Assembly: GCF_014697025.1 (NCBI RefSeq)
Contig: NZ_JACJRC010000036.1
Coordinates: 1 to 43,607 of the forward strand
Length of the DNA: 43,607 nt
From: Alkalinema sp. FACHB-956
GTDB lineage: Bacteria; Cyanobacteriota; Cyanobacteriia; Leptolyngbyales; Leptolyngbyaceae
Reading direction: 5' to 3'
Position numbers and translations under genes: made by a program. This document shows, one piece after another, positions 33,901-43,100 of this stretch (positions are counted from its first letter, which is position 1; every line of letters starts with the position of its first letter). The notes beneath the pieces were generated by a model. It was not told the origin of the DNA, searched no databases, and saw only the letters and a list, made by a program, of their open reading frames with translations.

Positions 33901-36777
33901 TCATGACGTTTGGGAAGATGAAGTTAACGGATAGTGGGTTTGGAGATAGCCGATCGCGGCGGGGCGATCGGTAATCACTCCATCCAACGTTGCCGCTTGT
34001 AGCGTTTCCAAAATTTCCTTAAAGAGTTTTCCCGGTTTATAGCCTAGGGTTTTGAGGTCATGGCCGGTGAGCAATGGTTTGACGGCTGCCAATTGGGTTA
34101 AGTAATGCCAAATTGCGCGACGAATGGGGCGCGATCCCCTTGCTGCCACAAGGGATAGCAGCGGTAAATCGTAGGGCTTCAGTAATTGGTAAATTTGACT
34201 GGCGCGATCGCACTGGGGTAACTGCTGGTTCACTTGCAGTTCCACCGCCGCCAATTGCGTTAAACGATCGATGCAATCCACCGCTAACTGCAAATTTTGT
34301 GCAACCGTCTGCCGGACAGTCGTGAGACGGCTGGCCTCGTTGGTGAGACGGCTGGCCTCGTTCATCGTATCCTGCATTGAATTTGTCGCTAGATCGATCG
34401 ATCGTTCAGCCAACGGATCAGCAGGCGGTTCGGGCTCGATCGCGGCAATCAGCACTTCCAACAACATCTGCCAAGACTGAAGATGGCCTTCTTGGTTACA
34501 CTGTTGCATCCACCATTCCATCAAGCGTAACTGTCGCCACAGTTGCGTTGTTAACTTCAGCGTTGGATAGATACAGCACAGCGCATCCAGTTCCGCTAAT
34601 TTACGAACCGCCAATCGCCAATACTTCGCTTGCAGAATATATTTTAATTCCGCCTTCAGTCGCGTTTGTAAGGCCGGGGCAATGACCTTGCCATTCTGTG
34701 TCTCGCGCACCTGATTATAAATGCCACTGGCGATCGCGTGGCGGATGTAGCCTTCCGTTTGCGCATCGAAGTCAAACCCCAACCGCGCAGCAAACCGAAC
34801 GCCCCGGTAAATGCGCGTCGGATCTTCAATAAAACTATTGGGATGCAACACCCGCACACACTTCGCCCGCAAATCCAGCACCCCACCAAAGAAATCCAAC
34901 ATTTCCCCCGATCGAGGATTTGTCAGCCGCAACGCCAAGGCATTAATCGTAAAATCCCGGCGGTAGAGATCCTGCTGAATCGAACTGGCCTCCACTTCGG
35001 GATTCGCCGCTGGGTAGGGATAGAACTCCGTGCGAGCCGTGGCAATGTCGATCCAGAGGGAATCCAGTACAGGATCCTTGTGCCAAGTTAAGGCCGCCGT
35101 CTGAAATTTGCCATGGACTTCTAATTTGGCTTCCGGATATAACGCCTGCAACGCCTTGGCTAACTCAACCCCGGCCCCGGCCTCCGCCGATCGGTGATAG
35201 CCATCCACCACCAAATCCAAATCCGTCAGCATCACCGGCTGGCCCACTGCCGAGAGCATCAGATCCCGCACACCACCCCCCACCAGATATAAATGCCAGC
35301 CCCGTTCCTCCGCTTGCTGGGCCGCGATCGACAAAATGGCTTTTAGTGGGTCAATTAATTTATTCAGCGAAGGCACTACCGCATGGCGCGGGGGCACCAC
35401 GGTGATCGATCGACGGGCGTGACCTTCCGATCGGGGCGATCGCGGGTCTTGCCGATCCTGATCCTGGCGATGCAACTGCCGCAGCACATCCGTCCGCGTC
35501 ACGATACCCACTAACTTGCCCTGCTCCAGCACGGGTAAGCGGCCAATGTCATAGGTCACCATCAATTCTTCGATCGCCGGTAGGGTCGTCTCTGGGGCGA
35601 TCGTATGCAGATTCGTCGTCATGTAGCCCTTGACCTTGGCATGGCTAAAGCCATGGTGGAAGGCAATGTCCAAATCACGCCGGGAAATCACGCCGATCAG
35701 TTGCCCCGCATCATCCATCACCGATAGGCCAGAATGCCCATAGCGCAGGAGGATCCGCTGAGCTTCGGCGATCGTGGTTTCCGGCAAAATGGTGCGCACG
35801 GGGGAGGACATCAGTTCCCTGGCAGTGGGGGCCGGAGGAATCTGTGCCCGCAACTCAACTAGCAACTGCTCCAGAATTTGCGGATAGTCCCCCTCCCGCA
35901 GATTCAGTGCTGCCGCTTTGGCATGACCACCGCCCCCCCAGGGTTTGAAGAGTTGATTCAGATCGGTTCCTTTAATCCGCGATCGGCCAATCACGGACAT
36001 CTTGCCACAGGAGGCTTCGATCGGATCCTCTGCACAGCCATAGCGATGGGCCAGCAGGATCCCATCCACATCCGTCAGATCGACCAAGTGAGAAATTAGC
36101 GTAGACAGACCGGGGACAAATTCAGCGGTTTCCAGCAGCACCCAGGCGAGGGTATACCCCTGGATTCCTTCCGTCTGAAGCCGTTCCAGGGCTTCCCCTA
36201 ACAGAACTTGCAACTGGGGGGAGAGGCCCGGTTCTAGGTACTCGCTAATCACCGGAAGGCTGGCCCCCTGGGTCATCAGCCAGGTTAGCGCCGCTGCATC
36301 CCGAGGGGTCGTATGGTCAAAGGTGAGGGATCCCGTATCCACATGGATCCCCAAGGCGAGAACCGTGGCATCCAGGGCATTCAGCACATAGCCTTCCTGC
36401 TGCAACTGTTCTGTGATCAGGGTCGTAGTGGCTCCCAAATCCTCGACAATTGTCTCCTGGGCTGGAATATCACAGTCAGCCTGGGGATGGTGGTCATAGA
36501 TCGCGATCGGCACCGGCAAGTCCAGCCATTCCGCCGTTTTGCCCAAGCGATCGCGGCTTTGGGTATCCACAATGCTGATCGATCGAATTTGATCCCCAGG
36601 TACCGATCGCCGCTCAATCAAGGGATACTCATCCCGGTAAAGCGCCAGAAAGTCCCGGACTGCTGGGTGAGCCCCCCCTGCTAGGACAATCCGAGATCCC
36701 GGTCGTAGCCGCGCTAATCCAACCGCTGCACCCAGCGTGTCGAAATCTGCGGTCGTATGGCATAGAATCAAATCCAT
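33901..36777 (-). CDS. DHH-CBS tRNA nucleotidyltransferase (CCA-/A-adding type)
   Basis: A 958-residue fusion. Residues 1-310 are a DHH phosphoesterase (HTTADFDTLGAAVGLARL, Asp95-His96-His97, and the DHHA1 loop GGGGHAKAAALNL). Residues 318-440 are two CBS domains (LMSSPVRTILPETTIAEAQ and YMTTNLHTIAPETTLPAIEEL). Residues 470-700 are a class II nucleotidyltransferase head with LVGGGVRDLML (about 498-508) and catalytic acids in TDLDLVVDG, then RIYRGVRFAARLGF. This matches the large cyanobacterial and Aquifex-type enzyme, where CC and A addition are split between two proteins; this long form is probably the A-adding one. A seven-residue duplication (NEASRLT) is near 790. It diverges from psbZ. 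Confidence 0.93.
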   Translation of the reverse strand: MDLILCHTTADFDTLGAAVGLARLRPGSRIVLAGGAHPAVRDFLALYRDEYPLIERRSVPGDQIRSISIVDTQSRDRLGKTAEWLDLPVPIAIYDHHPQADCDIPAQETIVEDLGATTTLITEQLQQEGYVLNALDATVLALGIHVDTGSLTFDHTTPRDAAALTWLMTQGASLPVISEYLEPGLSPQLQVLLGEALERLQTEGIQGYTLAWVLLETAEFVPGLSTLISHLVDLTDVDGILLAHRYGCAEDPIEASCGKMSVIGRSRIKGTDLNQLFKPWGGGGHAKAAALNLREGDYPQILEQLLVELRAQIPPAPTARELMSSPVRTILPETTIAEAQRILLRYGHSGLSVMDDAGQLIGVISRRDLDIAFHHGFSHAKVKGYMTTNLHTIAPETTLPAIEELMVTYDIGRLPVLEQGKLVGIVTRTDVLRQLHRQDQDRQDPRSPRSEGHARRSITVVPPRHAVVPSLNKLIDPLKAILSIAAQQAEERGWHLYLVGGGVRDLMLSAVGQPVMLTDLDLVVDGYHRSAEAGAGVELAKALQALYPEAKLEVHGKFQTAALTWHKDPVLDSLWIDIATARTEFYPYPAANPEVEASSIQQDLYRRDFTINALALRLTNPRSGEMLDFFGGVLDLRAKCVRVLHPNSFIEDPTRIYRGVRFAARLGFDFDAQTEGYIRHAIASGIYNQVRETQNGKVIAPALQTRLKAELKYILQAKYWRLAVRKLAELDALCCIYPTLKLTTQLWRQLRLMEWWMQQCNQEGHLQSWQMLLEVLIAAIEPEPPADPLAERSIDLATNSMQDTMNEASRLTNEASRLTTVRQTVAQNLQLAVDCIDRLTQLAAVELQVNQQLPQCDRASQIYQLLKPYDLPLLSLVAARGSRPIRRAIWHYLTQLAAVKPLLTGHDLKTLGYKPGKLFKEILETLQAATLDGVITDRPAAIGYLQTHYPLTSSSQTS

Positions 36778-37374: not shown

Positions 37375-37947
37375 ATGGCTACTTTTGAAGGAACATTTGC
37401 CCACGCAGAGGCCTATCGCTTCGCAATTATTATTGGGCGTTTTAATGATTTGGTCACCATCAAGCTCCTGGAAGGCTGTCAAGACTGCCTAAAGCGTCAT
37501 GGAGTGGATGTTGACCCCCAGGGCACCCAGGTGGATTACATTTGGGCACCGGGTTGTTTCGAGCTACCTTTGTTAGCACGACAGGTGGCGGGTTCGGGTC
37601 GCTATGATGCAGTGGTCTGCATTGGTGCAGTCATTCGGGGCGGCACTCCTCACTTTGACTACGTGGCTGCTGAGGTGTCCAAGGGCGTTTCGGCGGCGGC
37701 GTTCCAAACAGGTGTTCCCATTATCTTTGGGGTGTTGACTACAGACAACATGCAGCAGGCCCTGGAAAGAGCTGGGATTAAGAGCAATAAAGGCTGGGAA
37801 TTTGGCATGAGTGCGCTGGAGATGGCCAGCCTCATGCACCAACTGCGGGAAGCCGGTTGTACGAATGGCCAAAGCCCGATTGGCCAAAGCCCGATCGCCA
37901 GTTCTCCTACCCTGCACACCTTGCCGGTCACCGTGGCAGATAGCTAG
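37375..37947 (+). CDS. ribH: 6,7-dimethyl-8-ribityllumazine synthase
   Basis: Penultimate step of riboflavin synthesis: joins 5-amino-6-ribitylaminouracil with dihydroxybutanone phosphate. Residues 10-165 are the full fold: [41 protein letters not shown] with catalytic His93, and [19 protein letters not shown]. At 190 residues it is about 25-30 longer than usual. The extra tail ([16 protein letters not shown]) includes a perfect 15-bp tandem duplication at 37866-37895. No RFN riboswitch is visible in the 295-bp leader, and no other rib gene is adjacent. A strong hairpin follows at 38047-38089. Confidence 0.96.
37866..37895 (+). repeat. In-frame perfect 15-bp tandem duplication in ribH tail
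   Basis: TGGCCAAAGCCCGAT is present twice head to tail and encodes the doubled GQSPI in the C-terminal extension. Confidence 0.93.
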
Positions 37948-38046
37948 GGGCGATCGCGGCAGGTTCGATCGCGCGGTTCATCATTCTAAATCTTGGCTAC
38001 AAATCGGCTGTAAAGCTTAGCTAGCTGTAAAGCTTAGCTATAAGTT

Positions 38047-38089
38047 AGCGCTGATTGTGGGGACATTTAAACACCTCACGATCAGCGCT
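38047..38089. terminator. Long hairpin between convergent ribH and ccmO
   Basis: AGCGCTGAT (38047-38055) pairs exactly with ATCAGCGCT (38081-38089). Pairing continues through GTGGGG/CCTCAC with G-T pairs, giving a stem of about 16 bp and an 11-base AT-rich loop. It is placed to end transcription from both sides. Just before it CTGTAAAGCTTAGCT is duplicated (about 38008-38038). Confidence 0.7.
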
Positions 38090-38149
38090 TTAACTATTAC
38101 AACTTTAACTATTGCAACGATGATTGCCTATGATGGCAGCCTAGTTCCG

Positions 38150-40012
38150 CTACTCAGTCGGTTCCTCAGCGGCTGGACTGGACTGGGTTGGACTTTTTTC
38201 CTGGTTGGGAGAAGCAGACCCTCCCGCACTGGGGACTTCCGCATCGGGCTGGCTATCGGATTTGCTGTCGGATTTGCTATCAGATTTGCCGAGGGGTTGG
38301 CTCTCAGGTTGGCTAGGCGTCCCTTCAGGCACCGCCTTTATCGTCTCAATCGTCTCAGCAGAATTTGTCGCGATCGCGGGAGCATTCTGCGGCGAGGGTG
38401 TTTCTGGGGCAGGCGGTTCGATCGGGGGCTGGGTGATGATAGGAGTCGCGATCTGGCTGGCTTCAACGACTTCAACTGTCACTTCAACCGCTTCGACAAC
38501 CGCTTCCACTACTGGCACCGATTCCACCACGGGCACTGCTTCCACTACTGGCACCGCTTCCGCCACGGGCACTGCTTCCACTACTGGCACCGCTTCCACG
38601 ACTTTGACTTCAGGAGCAGTCTCCAGCGAAGTCTCCAGTGAACGGTCAGATAAGACCTGAGCTGGAGTTTCAGATACCGCTTCCGGCGATACCGCTTCCG
38701 GTGCAAGCTGAAGCAAGTCAGGCGCGATCGTTTCTACCGCACTAAATTCCACCGCGATCGCGTCGATCGCTGGCAATTGCGAGGAGGACGGGTTAGAGGG
38801 CGTCGTGTCCCCGATCGGCGGATTGAGGCGCTCCGCATCGATTTCCGCAGCGTCTCGGGGCATAACTTCAACGGGCGAAATTTTTACGGGCGCAACTTCA
38901 ACCGGCGTAACTTCAACTGGCGTAACTTCAACCGGCGTAACTTCCACAGGTACAGCTTCAACGGGGGCCGCTTCCACTTCAGTGCGCAACTCAGCGACAG
39001 GTTTAACTACAGGTTCAACTACAGGTTCAACTACAGATTCAACTACAGGTTCAGCCAAGGGGGACTGCGTTGGCGTTGGCTCGATGGGGGATTCCGGGGA
39101 TTCTAAAGGCGCATCTAACCCGCGATCGAACGATTTCGCCTGCCACGATTCCGCCTCAAACGGCTCAACAGCAAATTCTTGCAACGGCTCCTGGGCAGCC
39201 CGATCGGGCATCCGCAAGTCTTCGATCGGCTGCTCTAGTTCTAATTTTTGGGGTTCAAAAACTTCTTCATTAAAAACAGGAATTTCTTGAGGCTGCGGCA
39301 GTTCCAACGGCTGGAGCGGCTGCAATTCACGCACCGTCTCTTCCACCGTGATGTTAATGGGCATCCGCACCGGCTGAAGTTCTTCGATCCAGCAAGCGGC
39401 GATCGGCATCGTCCGTTCCAAATCCTCCAGCGGTCGGGGAATCACCATGACGGCGTGCAGTTCACCCACCCGATCGGCCTCGGCCATGCCAATTTCGATC
39501 GCAGCGGCCACGTTGGACATCGACCCCCGCACGATCGCGGTACAGAGCCCAGCACCCGTGGTGTGATAGGCCGATAAGGTAACATCCGCCGATTTCAGCA
39601 TGGCATCAGCGGCGGCCACCAATGCCGGGAACCCCCGCGTTTCGATCAACCCCACGGCCTGATCGCGAAACCGATTATTCTCTCGTCCTTCCACTAGTTC
39701 CGCCAACCGACTCCCGATCGGCAACACTTCCTCCAAATTGGGCATGGGCCGGGGAATAATGACCGACGAGGTTTTTTGGCCAAACTGAGCGGCTAATTCT
39801 TCCCCCGTCTGAATGGCCAAGCGAATATCCGGCGTTCTGCCCCGCACGACCGCCGTACAGTAGCCACTACCAATCTGCTCATACCCCACCAAGGTCACAG
39901 CGGAGGACTTCAGCATCATGTCTGCAATGCCCACGATCGCTGGGAAGCTCTGGGCCGAAATCAGCCCAAGCGCCAGATCGGAATAGGGATCGTCAGAACG
40001 GGTACGATACAT
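38150..40012 (-). CDS. ccmO: CcmO-type carboxysome shell protein with long repetitive acidic tail
   Basis: Two tandem BMC shell domains: residues 13-95 (LALGLISAQSFPAIVGIADMML, GSGYCTAVVRG) and 118-205 (QAVGLIETRGFPALVAAADAML, GAGLCTAIVRG), each closing with a VIIPRPM/VMVIPRPL strand. This is the CcmO layout of beta-carboxysomes, expected to build pseudohexameric shell trimers. Known CcmO proteins are about 260-310 residues. Here some 400 more follow, Pro/Val/Glu-rich, strongly acidic and low in complexity, with PVEVT repeats (about 330-385) and VPVVEA repeats (about 490-545), ending in a Ser/Gln/Lys/Asp stretch. The frame is open throughout. The gene stands apart from other ccm genes, 127 bp downstream of putA. 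Confidence 0.88.
   Translation of the reverse strand: MYRTRSDDPYSDLALGLISAQSFPAIVGIADMMLKSSAVTLVGYEQIGSGYCTAVVRGRTPDIRLAIQTGEELAAQFGQKTSSVIIPRPMPNLEEVLPIGSRLAELVEGRENNRFRDQAVGLIETRGFPALVAAADAMLKSADVTLSAYHTTGAGLCTAIVRGSMSNVAAAIEIGMAEADRVGELHAVMVIPRPLEDLERTMPIAACWIEELQPVRMPINITVEETVRELQPLQPLELPQPQEIPVFNEEVFEPQKLELEQPIEDLRMPDRAAQEPLQEFAVEPFEAESWQAKSFDRGLDAPLESPESPIEPTPTQSPLAEPVVESVVEPVVEPVVKPVAELRTEVEAAPVEAVPVEVTPVEVTPVEVTPVEVAPVKISPVEVMPRDAAEIDAERLNPPIGDTTPSNPSSSQLPAIDAIAVEFSAVETIAPDLLQLAPEAVSPEAVSETPAQVLSDRSLETSLETAPEVKVVEAVPVVEAVPVAEAVPVVEAVPVVESVPVVEAVVEAVEVTVEVVEASQIATPIITQPPIEPPAPETPSPQNAPAIATNSAETIETIKAVPEGTPSQPESQPLGKSDSKSDSKSDSQPDAEVPSAGGSASPNQEKSPTQSSPAAEEPTE
38480..39060 (-). repeat. 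Tandem coding repeats in the ccmO tail
   Basis: Two blocks: about 38505-38610, an 18-bp-class unit coding VPVVEA, and about 38870-39060, 15-bp and 18-bp units coding PVEVT and VVEP. Long spurious frames on the opposite strand arise from these repeats. Confidence 0.85.
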
Positions 40013-40139
40013 AGAAGTCTTGAATGGGGTTCGTTGCTATTCTATCGCCTCCAGTTCCAGCTACCCCGATTCCCTAGGTTTAATCCAGCAATGCCTCTGT
40101 TTAGAAAGACTCATCCTTCTGGACGGGGCATGGGCAAGC

Positions 40140-43100
40140 TTAAACATCCACCCCTTCGATCGGGGCAAACCCTTGGCGCTGAATATTTTCCGTCACGGTG
40201 CGCGGCTCTAAAAATTGCAACAAATAATCCGGCCCCCCTGCCTTGGAGCCAACGCCGGACAACTTAAAGCCTCCAAAGGGTTGCCGTGCGACGATCGCCC
40301 CGGTAATGCTGCGGTTGATGTACAAGTTGCCCACTTCAAATTCAGCCTTGGCCCGCTCAATGTGCGACGGGGTGCGGGAAAAGAGGCCCCCGGTTAAGGC
40401 AAAATTCGTCCCATTGGCGATCGCCAACGCCTGATCAAAATCCGTCGCCTGCATCACCGCCAACACAGGGCCAAAAATTTCCTCCTGGGCGATCGTGCTT
40501 TGCGGATCAACGTTGGTAAAAATCGTCGGCCCCACAAAATAGCCCGTTTCTGGGCTGGGTAATTCGATCGCGAGGGTGGCCTCTGCTTTTCCCTTAGCAA
40601 TGTAGTCCCGAATCCGTTGCTGGGCTGCGGCATCAATCACCGGCCCCACCTGGGTACTGGCAGCGGCGGCATCCCCCACATTGAGGGATTGGGTGGCTTC
40701 CACCAATCGCGCCACAAAGGCGTCATAAATCGGCGCAAGCACCACCACCCGCGAACAAGCCGAACATTTCTGTCCGCTGTAGCCGAAGGCGGAATACACC
40801 ACCCCCTGCACGGCTTGATCTAAATCAGCGCTCTCGTCAACGATGATGGCGTTTTTGCCCCCCATTTCCGCCACGACACGCTTCAGGTGTTTTTGTCCCG
40901 GTTGCAATACTGCCGCATCGGCATAGATCTGGCAGCCCACCTCCTGGGAGCCGGTAAAGACAATCATCTGCACATCACGGTGTTTAACGAGGTAATTGCC
41001 AACGGTGGAGCCACGACCGGGAATGTATTGAAACACACCGGGGGGAATTCCGGCTTCAACCAAAATTTCACTCAGCTTTGCCGCAATCACCGAGGTTACT
41101 GCAGCGGGCTTAAGCAATGCACAATTCCCCGTCACCAATGCCGCGATCGTCATGCCGGTGGGAATCGCTAACGGAAAATTCCACGGCGAAATGACTAACA
41201 CAAGGCCCTTCGGCTGATAGAAATAGCGATCGGTTTCCCCTGCTACATCGTAGCTGAGTTCCTGGGCGAGCCGTTCCATTTCTGCGGCATAATAGCGACA
41301 AAAATCCACCGCTTCTGAAACTTCCCCATCCGCTTGCCGCAGAGGTTTTCCCGCTTCATAGACCATCCAGGCATTTAACTCGTGGCGACGGGCTTCTAGT
41401 AAATCGGCGACTTTGCGAATGATGGCAACCCGTTCTTTGACGGGTGTACGTTTCCAGGTGGCAAAGGCGGTTTTTGCGGCGGTAACAGCCTCCTCCGCTT
41501 GGTCTAAATCGATCTGTCCCACTGTTCCCACGACCTGACTGGGCTGCGAGGGATTGACCGATGGCAGGGTCGCATCTGTAGTGATCGATCGACCGTTGAT
41601 TAACGGCCCGTAGGTCTGTCCCAACTGTTGTTTTACACTGGCAAGTCCAGCATTCGCCCGATCGCGCAGATTTCCCAGGGCGTAGTCCGTATCCGGCGCT
41701 GGATCAATCCGACTCAGTGACGGAGAACTAGGGGCGATCGCCAGCGGATTCACTTCTAGTAATTCATCGCCTTCCCCCCACCTTGGAATCGCCAACAACT
41801 CCTCCGTGGGTCGCGCTTCCAAACTCTGCCGCAGGAATGAACTGTTGGCCGTATTTTCCAGCAAACGGCGAATTAAATAGGACATACCCGGAATTAAGTC
41901 CCCATAGGGGCAATAAATCCGTACCCGCTGCCCCCGTTTGGCGATCGCGGTGGCCAAATTATCCGCCATGCCGTAGAGCATTTGAAATTCCACCCGTCGT
42001 TTGGGAATGGCCAAGGCATCCACGATCGCGAGGGCATGGGCCTGGGAGCGCACATTATGACTGCCGATCGCGGCGTACAGGTGGGCATGATTTTCCAGCA
42101 GCAAGGCCGTCATGCGCTCGTAATTGGCATCGGTGGAGGACTTGTGGTTATAGACCGGCGTGGGCCAATGATTCTGGCGCGATAGAATCGTTTCCTGATC
42201 CCAATAGGCTCCCTTGACCAGGCGCAGAGTGATCGGATGGCCGCGCTCCTTGACCCAGGTAATCAAATCCTTCAAATCACCATAGCTATCGCGAAGATAA
42301 GCTTGCAGCGTCATCCCCACATCGGTGCGATCGCGAAATTCTTCTTCCAACAGCAATTGTTTCAAGGCCGTTAGGGTGGCCTCTTTATAGCGGTATTGCT
42401 CCATGTCAAAATGCACCGCGACGCCCAATTCCTTCGATCTCCGCAGTAAGGTGCGAATGCGATCGCTGACCTTGGCTTGGGATCCGGCTGCATCCAGGGG
42501 ATCAAATTGGGAATAAAAGGCCGTTAATTTGACGGACACTTGTACCTTGGGTAAGGCATCTCCCTCCGCAGCATCAATGTTCGCCACCGTTGACCAGCCT
42601 TTCGCAGCATCGGTTAACTGTGCCATTAAATCTAAATACTGCTGCAAATATTCCTGCGCTTCCGTTTCCGTAATCACGGCCTCACCCAACAGGTCGATCG
42701 TGAAGGCCATCGACTGTTTACGTAGCTGTTCAATACTTTTGAGCGCTTGCTTGAGAGTTTCGCCTGCAATATATTTCCGCGCTAGGGTTTCCACTGCTGT
42801 TGCCAACGTCGTTGCCGCAACCTGTCCTGGAACGGAATCGGCATGGGTAAAATTTAACAATCCCTTCAAGGCTTGGGGCAGTTCCACCGCTGCATCGCCC
42901 AGGTATTCCTGGAGGTGACGGGCGATCGCGGCTTTGGTTTTCAATGCTGGCAGGCAATCGATTAAGCGAAATAACTGCACCCGCAGTCCGGGATTTTCCA
43001 TCGTCCAAGCCAGCAGCTTGTCGTCCCAGCGCAACTGATCTTGGAACTTAGCAAAGAACGATCGCTTTTCTCCCGTTTGCGCCAAGAGTTCCCGCGCGAT

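Follow-up and report, generated by a model that had tools for sequence, protein, structure and literature searches.

A CcmO with an exceptionally long, repetitive C-terminal tail in the cyanobacterium Alkalinema sp. FACHB-956

What, if anything, does a cyanobacterium do with a carboxysome shell protein that is twice the usual length? The question is raised by a gene lying within a 43,607-nucleotide stretch of DNA from Alkalinema sp. FACHB-956, referred to here as the window. The gene lies at the coordinates that a preliminary description of the window had given (38150..40012), on the minus strand. It begins with ATG, runs for 620 codons without an internal stop, and predicts a protein of 65.8 kDa with a pI of 4.15. 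The preliminary description took the protein to be CcmO with both BMC domains intact, and rightly so. PF00936 matches two stretches of the protein (2.7e-43), encoded on the minus strand at 39746..39973 (75.4 bits) and 39431..39658 (89.3 bits), and both domains are complete and in tandem. The NCBIfam equivalog model for CcmO, NF053792, is passed over residues 9-211 with 341 bits against a cut-off of 270, and the BMC part is 57-82% identical to the CcmO of the relatives searched. AlphaFold2, run with 40 aligned CcmO sequences, predicts two BMC folds within residues 13-201, with strands and helices in the canonical, non-permuted order. The best match of the model to a solved structure is to the tandem BMC-H protein 6ner (Z 20.9, rmsd 3.3, 177 aligned residues), residues 13-202 of the model superposing on residues 3-202 of the 6ner chain; the fold search was informative for the BMC part and taught nothing about the rest.

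The organism has no other gene for CcmO, the beta-carboxysome shell protein in which two BMC domains stand in tandem: PF00936 has six matches in the genome (6.16 Mb in 59 contigs), and the only tandem pair amongst them is that of ccmO on contig C36. Since the main carboxysome locus is on contig C1, ccmO here occupies a satellite locus, as it is reported to do in 89 of 227 genomes (PMC5853843). The main locus encodes one CcmK, CcmL, a CcmM with four small-subunit-like stretches, and CcmN, and three further CcmK genes lie on contig C9, so that the remaining parts of a beta-carboxysome are encoded in the genome. The first gene of the satellite ccmK cluster on C9 (L118:8503-9659) has SCASGR in its pore loop, while its neighbours have KAGSAR and RAGSAR.

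A search for a shared neighbourhood of ccmO gave almost nothing. Apart from the genome's own two ccmK places, 84 ccmO loci were compared, including some duplicates and some loci with short flanks. In searches at 1e-15, the RibH of the window has no match beside any of them and its PutA has a match beside just one (L066, 28% identity). A scan of 37900-40250 for promoters and terminators found sites no more common than in shuffled sequence. Elsewhere in the window, 33901-36777 encodes a 958-residue protein in which CBS and poly(A) polymerase head domains are recognized, while its DHH match falls slightly short of threshold (26.5 bits against a cut-off of 28.1). The idea that detachment of ccmO from the main locus accounts for the length of the protein is not supported, as ccmO is off or far from the ccmK contig also in G002, G006, G022, G029, and G033, with frames of just 299-315 codons (G002 and G022 are fragmented assemblies, which can mimic such a separation).

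How unusual is the length? Of 388 genomes of the class, 306 had a CcmO by one search and 308 by another, and frame lengths were taken from the 232 genomes among the matches listed in these and in a search of relatives. Here the frame of the window, 628 codons from stop to stop, is the longest, though a longer one may exist among the other genomes; the median is 282, the 99th percentile is 425, and the second longest frame is 442. Stop-to-stop frames overstate the length of the protein (G290 has a frame of 414 but a tail of just 91 residues), and so the segments following the second BMC domain were compared directly. From 116 loci came 101 distinct tails, that of the window included (L090 was excluded because its tail runs off the locus). 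Their lengths are 41-134 residues in 96 cases, 207-222 in four, and 416 in the window, where the tail comprises residues 205-620. Every one of the 101 CcmO proteins possesses a tail, and 99 of the tails are net negative. A motif, [LVIM]P[EDQ], falls within the first 50 residues in 91 of the 101, compared to a mean of 41 in shuffled tails, a count that is descriptive, as related sequences are not independent. The tail of the window is thus the extreme of a general CcmO feature and not a new kind of appendage. In ten other members of the family (L014-L016, L021, L022, L024, L026, L027, L029, and L032), inspection by eye shows a short basic patch, such as HHRHRFRHK or RRRDRRKP, at the end of CcmO after the acidic stretch.

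The tail can be divided in two. Its proximal part (residues 205-240; 39293..39400, minus strand) is common to other CcmO proteins and contains the LP motif at 238-239, L238 and P239 each being kept in at least 90% of the 40 aligned sequences. Its distal part (residues 241-620; 38153..39292, minus strand) is largely specific to the lineage, acidic, and predicted to be unfolded. The preliminary description called the tail strongly negative, and this was overstated: with a net charge of -60, -0.14 per residue, and a charged fraction of 0.24, the tail is acidic (pI 4.05) but moderately so. It is 15% proline, 14% valine, and 2% aromatic, and the VPVVEA block (residues 471-525) is hydrophobic, its array lying in the most hydrophobic part of the tail. 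The claim that it is disordered fared better, though not without qualification. AlphaFold2 places neither helix nor strand beyond residue 201, and the ten-residue means of pLDDT in the tail are 38-61. However, the charge-hydropathy plot puts the tail as a whole just within the ordered range (-0.04) and its valine-rich block clearly within it (-0.46). The tail may therefore be described as predicted to be unfolded, with mixed support, and that it is also disordered in the cell we infer. No Pfam domain scores above its cut-off in the tail, and no folded or cysteine-rich end module is recognizable (the single cysteine is at residue 207). A match of CcmO to Pfam LED_rpt (0.0067; 16.7 bits against a cut-off of 59) was taken to be one of composition. 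As for the terminal amphipathic helix that is a trait of encapsulation peptides, AlphaFold2 predicts no helix in the tail, in a region where the confidence of the model is low.

The distal tail contains arrays of short repeats. The PVEVT and VPVVEA arrays of a repetitive tail of about 400 residues had already been recognized from the sequence, and TRF adds two more, VEPV and KSDS. All four lie on the minus strand and in frame: VEPV in 12-bp units (38997..39053), PVEVT in units of 15, 30, and 45 bp (38859..38965), VPVVEA in units of 18 and 36 bp (38499..38603), and KSDS, near the C-terminus, in units of 12 and 24 bp (38245..38307). Their periods are all multiples of 3, the exception within the gene being a weak row of 5-bp period outside these arrays (38173-38194, TRF score 30). 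Small arrays occur in ordinary CcmO tails as well (AEPI units in L028, seen by eye), but those of the window are longer and more numerous.

Might such a tail be an artefact, a product of misassembled repeats or a reading frame that conceals a stop or a frameshift? Repeats are prone to assembly error, and the relatives searched include no second genome of the genus. Also, codon choice in the tail scores -0.004, no better than uniform usage, whereas the BMC part scores 0.23 and six genes of the window score 0.05-0.17. One wrong frame of the tail even scores slightly above the true one (0.025), yet it holds 15 stops, and codon usage is best regarded as uninformative on whether the tail is coding. 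Other observations speak against an artefact. The single frame remains open over 416 codons, with the main arrays in periods that are multiples of 3, while the other five frames contain 4-38 stops. Where repeat units of four arrays of our choosing deviate from their consensus, 18 of 35 changes are synonymous, where chance would make 27% so (p = 0.0017 by a binomial test that treats changes as independent), an excess that is expected of translated repeats. The open frame, the stops elsewhere, and the synonymous excess together indicate that the tail is very probably translated, with the unbiased codons counting against. The longest near-exact block of repeats, about 98 bp, would fit within a typical short read, and, judging from block size, the repeats are unlikely to have collapsed grossly in assembly. 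The protein sequence of the tail matches only itself within its own genome (E 0.001), which argues as well against a dispersed repeat or mobile sequence as the source of the tail, and the tails of the sister genus are also long. An artefact is thus very improbable.

A tree built from the BMC part joins the CcmO of the window first to those of four genomes from a sister genus (97/89) and then to that of G007, making up a clade of six members (100/98). The sister genus is represented by G015, G024, G031, and G034 (tails L037-L040), the last genome (L037) being that of Alkalinema sp. CAN_BIN05. The cores of CcmO within the clade are 75-82% identical to that of the window, while the tails are 416 residues long in the window, 207-222 in the sister genus, and 116 in G007. 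The first 55-60 residues of the tail can be aligned between window and sister genus. Beyond residue 60, four of five comparisons within the clade are not clearly above shuffled sequences, 31-147 of 200 shuffles scoring as high; the exception is L010, where 3 of 200 do so. The tails of the sister genus differ in other respects. All four have basic ends (net +8 to +11 over the last 30 residues), and L039 has a confidently predicted helix at residues 323-366, with ten-residue means up to 97. The tail of the window has neither. The sister-genus CcmO proteins, at 409-424 residues, also temper the claim that the protein of the window is about twice the known length: this holds when the rest of the family supplies the median (frame ratio 2.07) but not relative to its closest kin.

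A distal tail so little conserved may owe its length to nothing more than permissiveness, a soluble acidic segment having been extended by replication slippage at short in-frame repeats, with no new function. The arrays of 12-45 bp units, the failure of most comparisons within the clade to rise above shuffles, the spread of the other 100 tails from 41 to 222 residues, and the unbiased choice of codons are all as such near-neutral growth would have it. The excess of synonymous differences between units is not. A second difficulty comes from the behaviour of other proteins of the same genome.

CcmN is the presumed link between the enzyme core of the carboxysome and the shell. The CcmN of this genome (471 residues; contig C1 of G000, L119:9128-10543) has a frame of 479 codons. 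Searches of 58 genomes gave 54 CcmN frames, of which this is the longest; in the rest of the family the median is 221. The excess lies in the segment after the LbH domain, 348 residues rich in Pro, Ser, Gly, and Asn. Four other members of the clade have 185-238 residues there, and eight family members from outside the clade have 85-96. The C-terminal VYGQ-YVN end, which by eye we take to be the shell-binding peptide, is kept. CcmN frames are 311-479 codons in five genomes of the clade, no CcmN having turned up in the sixth, the incomplete G034. In 29 further members of the family they are 155-247, the lower figure being that of G010, probably cut but retained. The corresponding figures for CcmO are 421-628 for the window and sister genus, 320 for G007, and 258-342 for 28 others.

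Set against the median frame in the rest of the family, CcmN of the window genome is as exaggerated as CcmO (2.17), but CcmM is not (0.96), nor are the controls: IF2 (1.04, which is 2.9 standard deviations above the mean but small in size), FtsZ (1.02), and RNase E (1.02). Short frames, probably cut by the ends of contigs, were excluded from these comparisons: IF2 of G008, G010, G043, and G054; CcmM of G005, G010, and G031 (second copies of CcmM were also left out); FtsZ of G008 and G041; and RNase E of G009, G010, G041, G043, and G054. With CcmM and the controls near normal, no inflation of loose segments throughout the genome was seen, and with CcmN long as well, a general drift of such segments does not suffice to account for the lengthening. 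Near-neutral growth of the CcmO tail is somewhat unlikely, though it deserves to be taken seriously. In the sister genus (G015, G024, G031, and G034), RNase E frames are longer too, 791-826 codons as against 690-772 in 27 others, so there the specificity of the lengthening is weaker.

If CcmO and CcmN grew together, perhaps they act together. Inward-directed CcmO tails and a longer CcmN linker might span a widened gap between the Rubisco core and the shell, or the tails might bind the core. The length of CcmN and the retention of its VYGQ-YVN end are consistent with such a luminal filler, as is the union of all six clade members in a single group. The frames of CcmO and CcmN are moreover correlated in rank within the family (rho 0.54, p 0.0013, n = 33) and, less so, over all genomes (0.38, n = 52). 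With the clade removed, however, the correlation becomes weak (rho 0.31, p 0.11, n = 28), so the link rests mainly on one clade and possibly on one event. Furthermore, G042 and G052 pair long CcmN frames (446 and 354) with ordinary CcmO (294 and 275), and the canonical order of the CcmO fold sets its C-terminus on the concave, cytosolic face. These considerations make a luminal filler rather doubtful. It is possible, and we propose it tentatively, that the CcmO tail and the CcmN linker lengthened jointly, bringing each protein to roughly double the median of the family, but the core scaffold CcmM did not, in a coordinated re-spacing of core, shell, and cytosol. The means would differ between the sister genera: in the lineage of the window V/P/E repeats, in the Alkalinema-like genus a long helix with a basic end. 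More generally, loose segments at the boundary of the carboxysome seem able to change quickly within one lineage. The encapsulation peptide of CcmN has been characterized as a tether of low occupancy (PMC12339742).

Which way, then, would the tail face? The preliminary description allowed for tails that line the shell inside or outside, recruit cargo, set the spacing between carboxysomes, or promote condensation. The C-terminus of a fold that is not permuted should leave from the concave face, which in shell proteins is reported to look to the cytosol (PMC10902431). The C-terminal tails of CcmK2 are likewise placed on the concave side (PMC7562746), and CcmS is described as binding the C-termini of CcmK1 at that face (PMC11635287). 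Since no structure of CcmO has been published, according to the accessible text of PMC13249358, the facing rests on analogy to these proteins. We favour CcmO tails that would extend into the cytosol, with three on each trimer. By the account we propose, the usual short acidic tail of CcmO would have grown through in-frame expansion of repeats to 416 residues, while the BMC part would continue to form the ordinary CcmO trimer in the shell, as predicted for the family. The C-terminus would exit at the concave face, so that each trimer would bear three long, acidic, Pro/Val/Glu-rich unfolded tails on the outside. The conserved motif in the proximal part would keep its usual role, and the distal part might set the distance between carboxysomes and the access of factors that act at their surface, such as the McdAB positioning proteins. 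With proteins of S. elongatus, an interaction between McdB and CcmO was seen by bacterial two-hybrid, with the authors' caution that McdB may be sticky (PMC6328274), and a model that Rae et al. themselves call speculative puts CcmO at edges or vertices of the shell (PMC3425506).

We put the chances at about even that the tail serves as an unfolded outward bristle or a weakly sticky spacer. The slight conservation of the distal tail in the sister genus and its unbiased codons fit weak constraint and count against such a role, and the hydrophobic valine-rich arrays, along with the marginal position in the charge-hydropathy plot, are a poor fit to a bristle that is purely repulsive. The long CcmN linker of the same clade, expected to be luminal, also weighs against an outward bristle, its parallel lengthening being compatible with a tail that lies in the lumen.

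Extensions are known in other shell proteins. The CcmO of the window shares with ordinary CcmO (NF053792; Synechococcus elongatus CcmO, PMC3425506) an acidic tail, an LP motif after the second domain, and a satellite locus. PduK, EutK, and CmcE are described as BMC-H proteins with C-terminal extensions of 40-70 residues (PMC12058022), and BMC-H extensions of up to 200 residues are on record (PMC8217296). These too join a shell protein to a long C-terminal extension, with an unstructured stretch in the case of PduK; however, they are single-domain proteins, and the tail considered here belongs to a CcmO and is twice the longest figure. Also, PduK (an Fe-S motif) and EutK (a nucleic-acid-binding fold) have predicted folded modules at their ends, unlike the CcmO of the window. 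Closer in setting is the extension of CcmK1, likewise a disordered C-terminus of a beta-carboxysome shell protein and on the concave face, but it is 12 residues long and has a known partner, CcmS (PMC11635287). The statement that no described CcmO of this form was known is supported as regards length: no description of a CcmO tail so long was found in a literature search that fell short of most subscription journals and preprints. It is less so as regards form, the tail being the extreme of a general one, and the variability of the N- and C-terminal parts of CcmO was noted in 2012 by Rae et al. (PMC3425506). In the literature searched, the variable tail is mentioned, and no study of it was found.

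The long tail is thus real, and what is new about it is its length and the parallel change in CcmN, CcmO tails as such being known. Deletion of ccmO is reported to abolish carboxysomes (PMC5853843). The clade constitutes a natural series of lengths, in which similar cores carry tails of anything between 116 and 416 residues and CcmN changes in parallel, by which the facing and function of the tail might be approached, and it may show where carboxysome shells tolerate an engineered extension.
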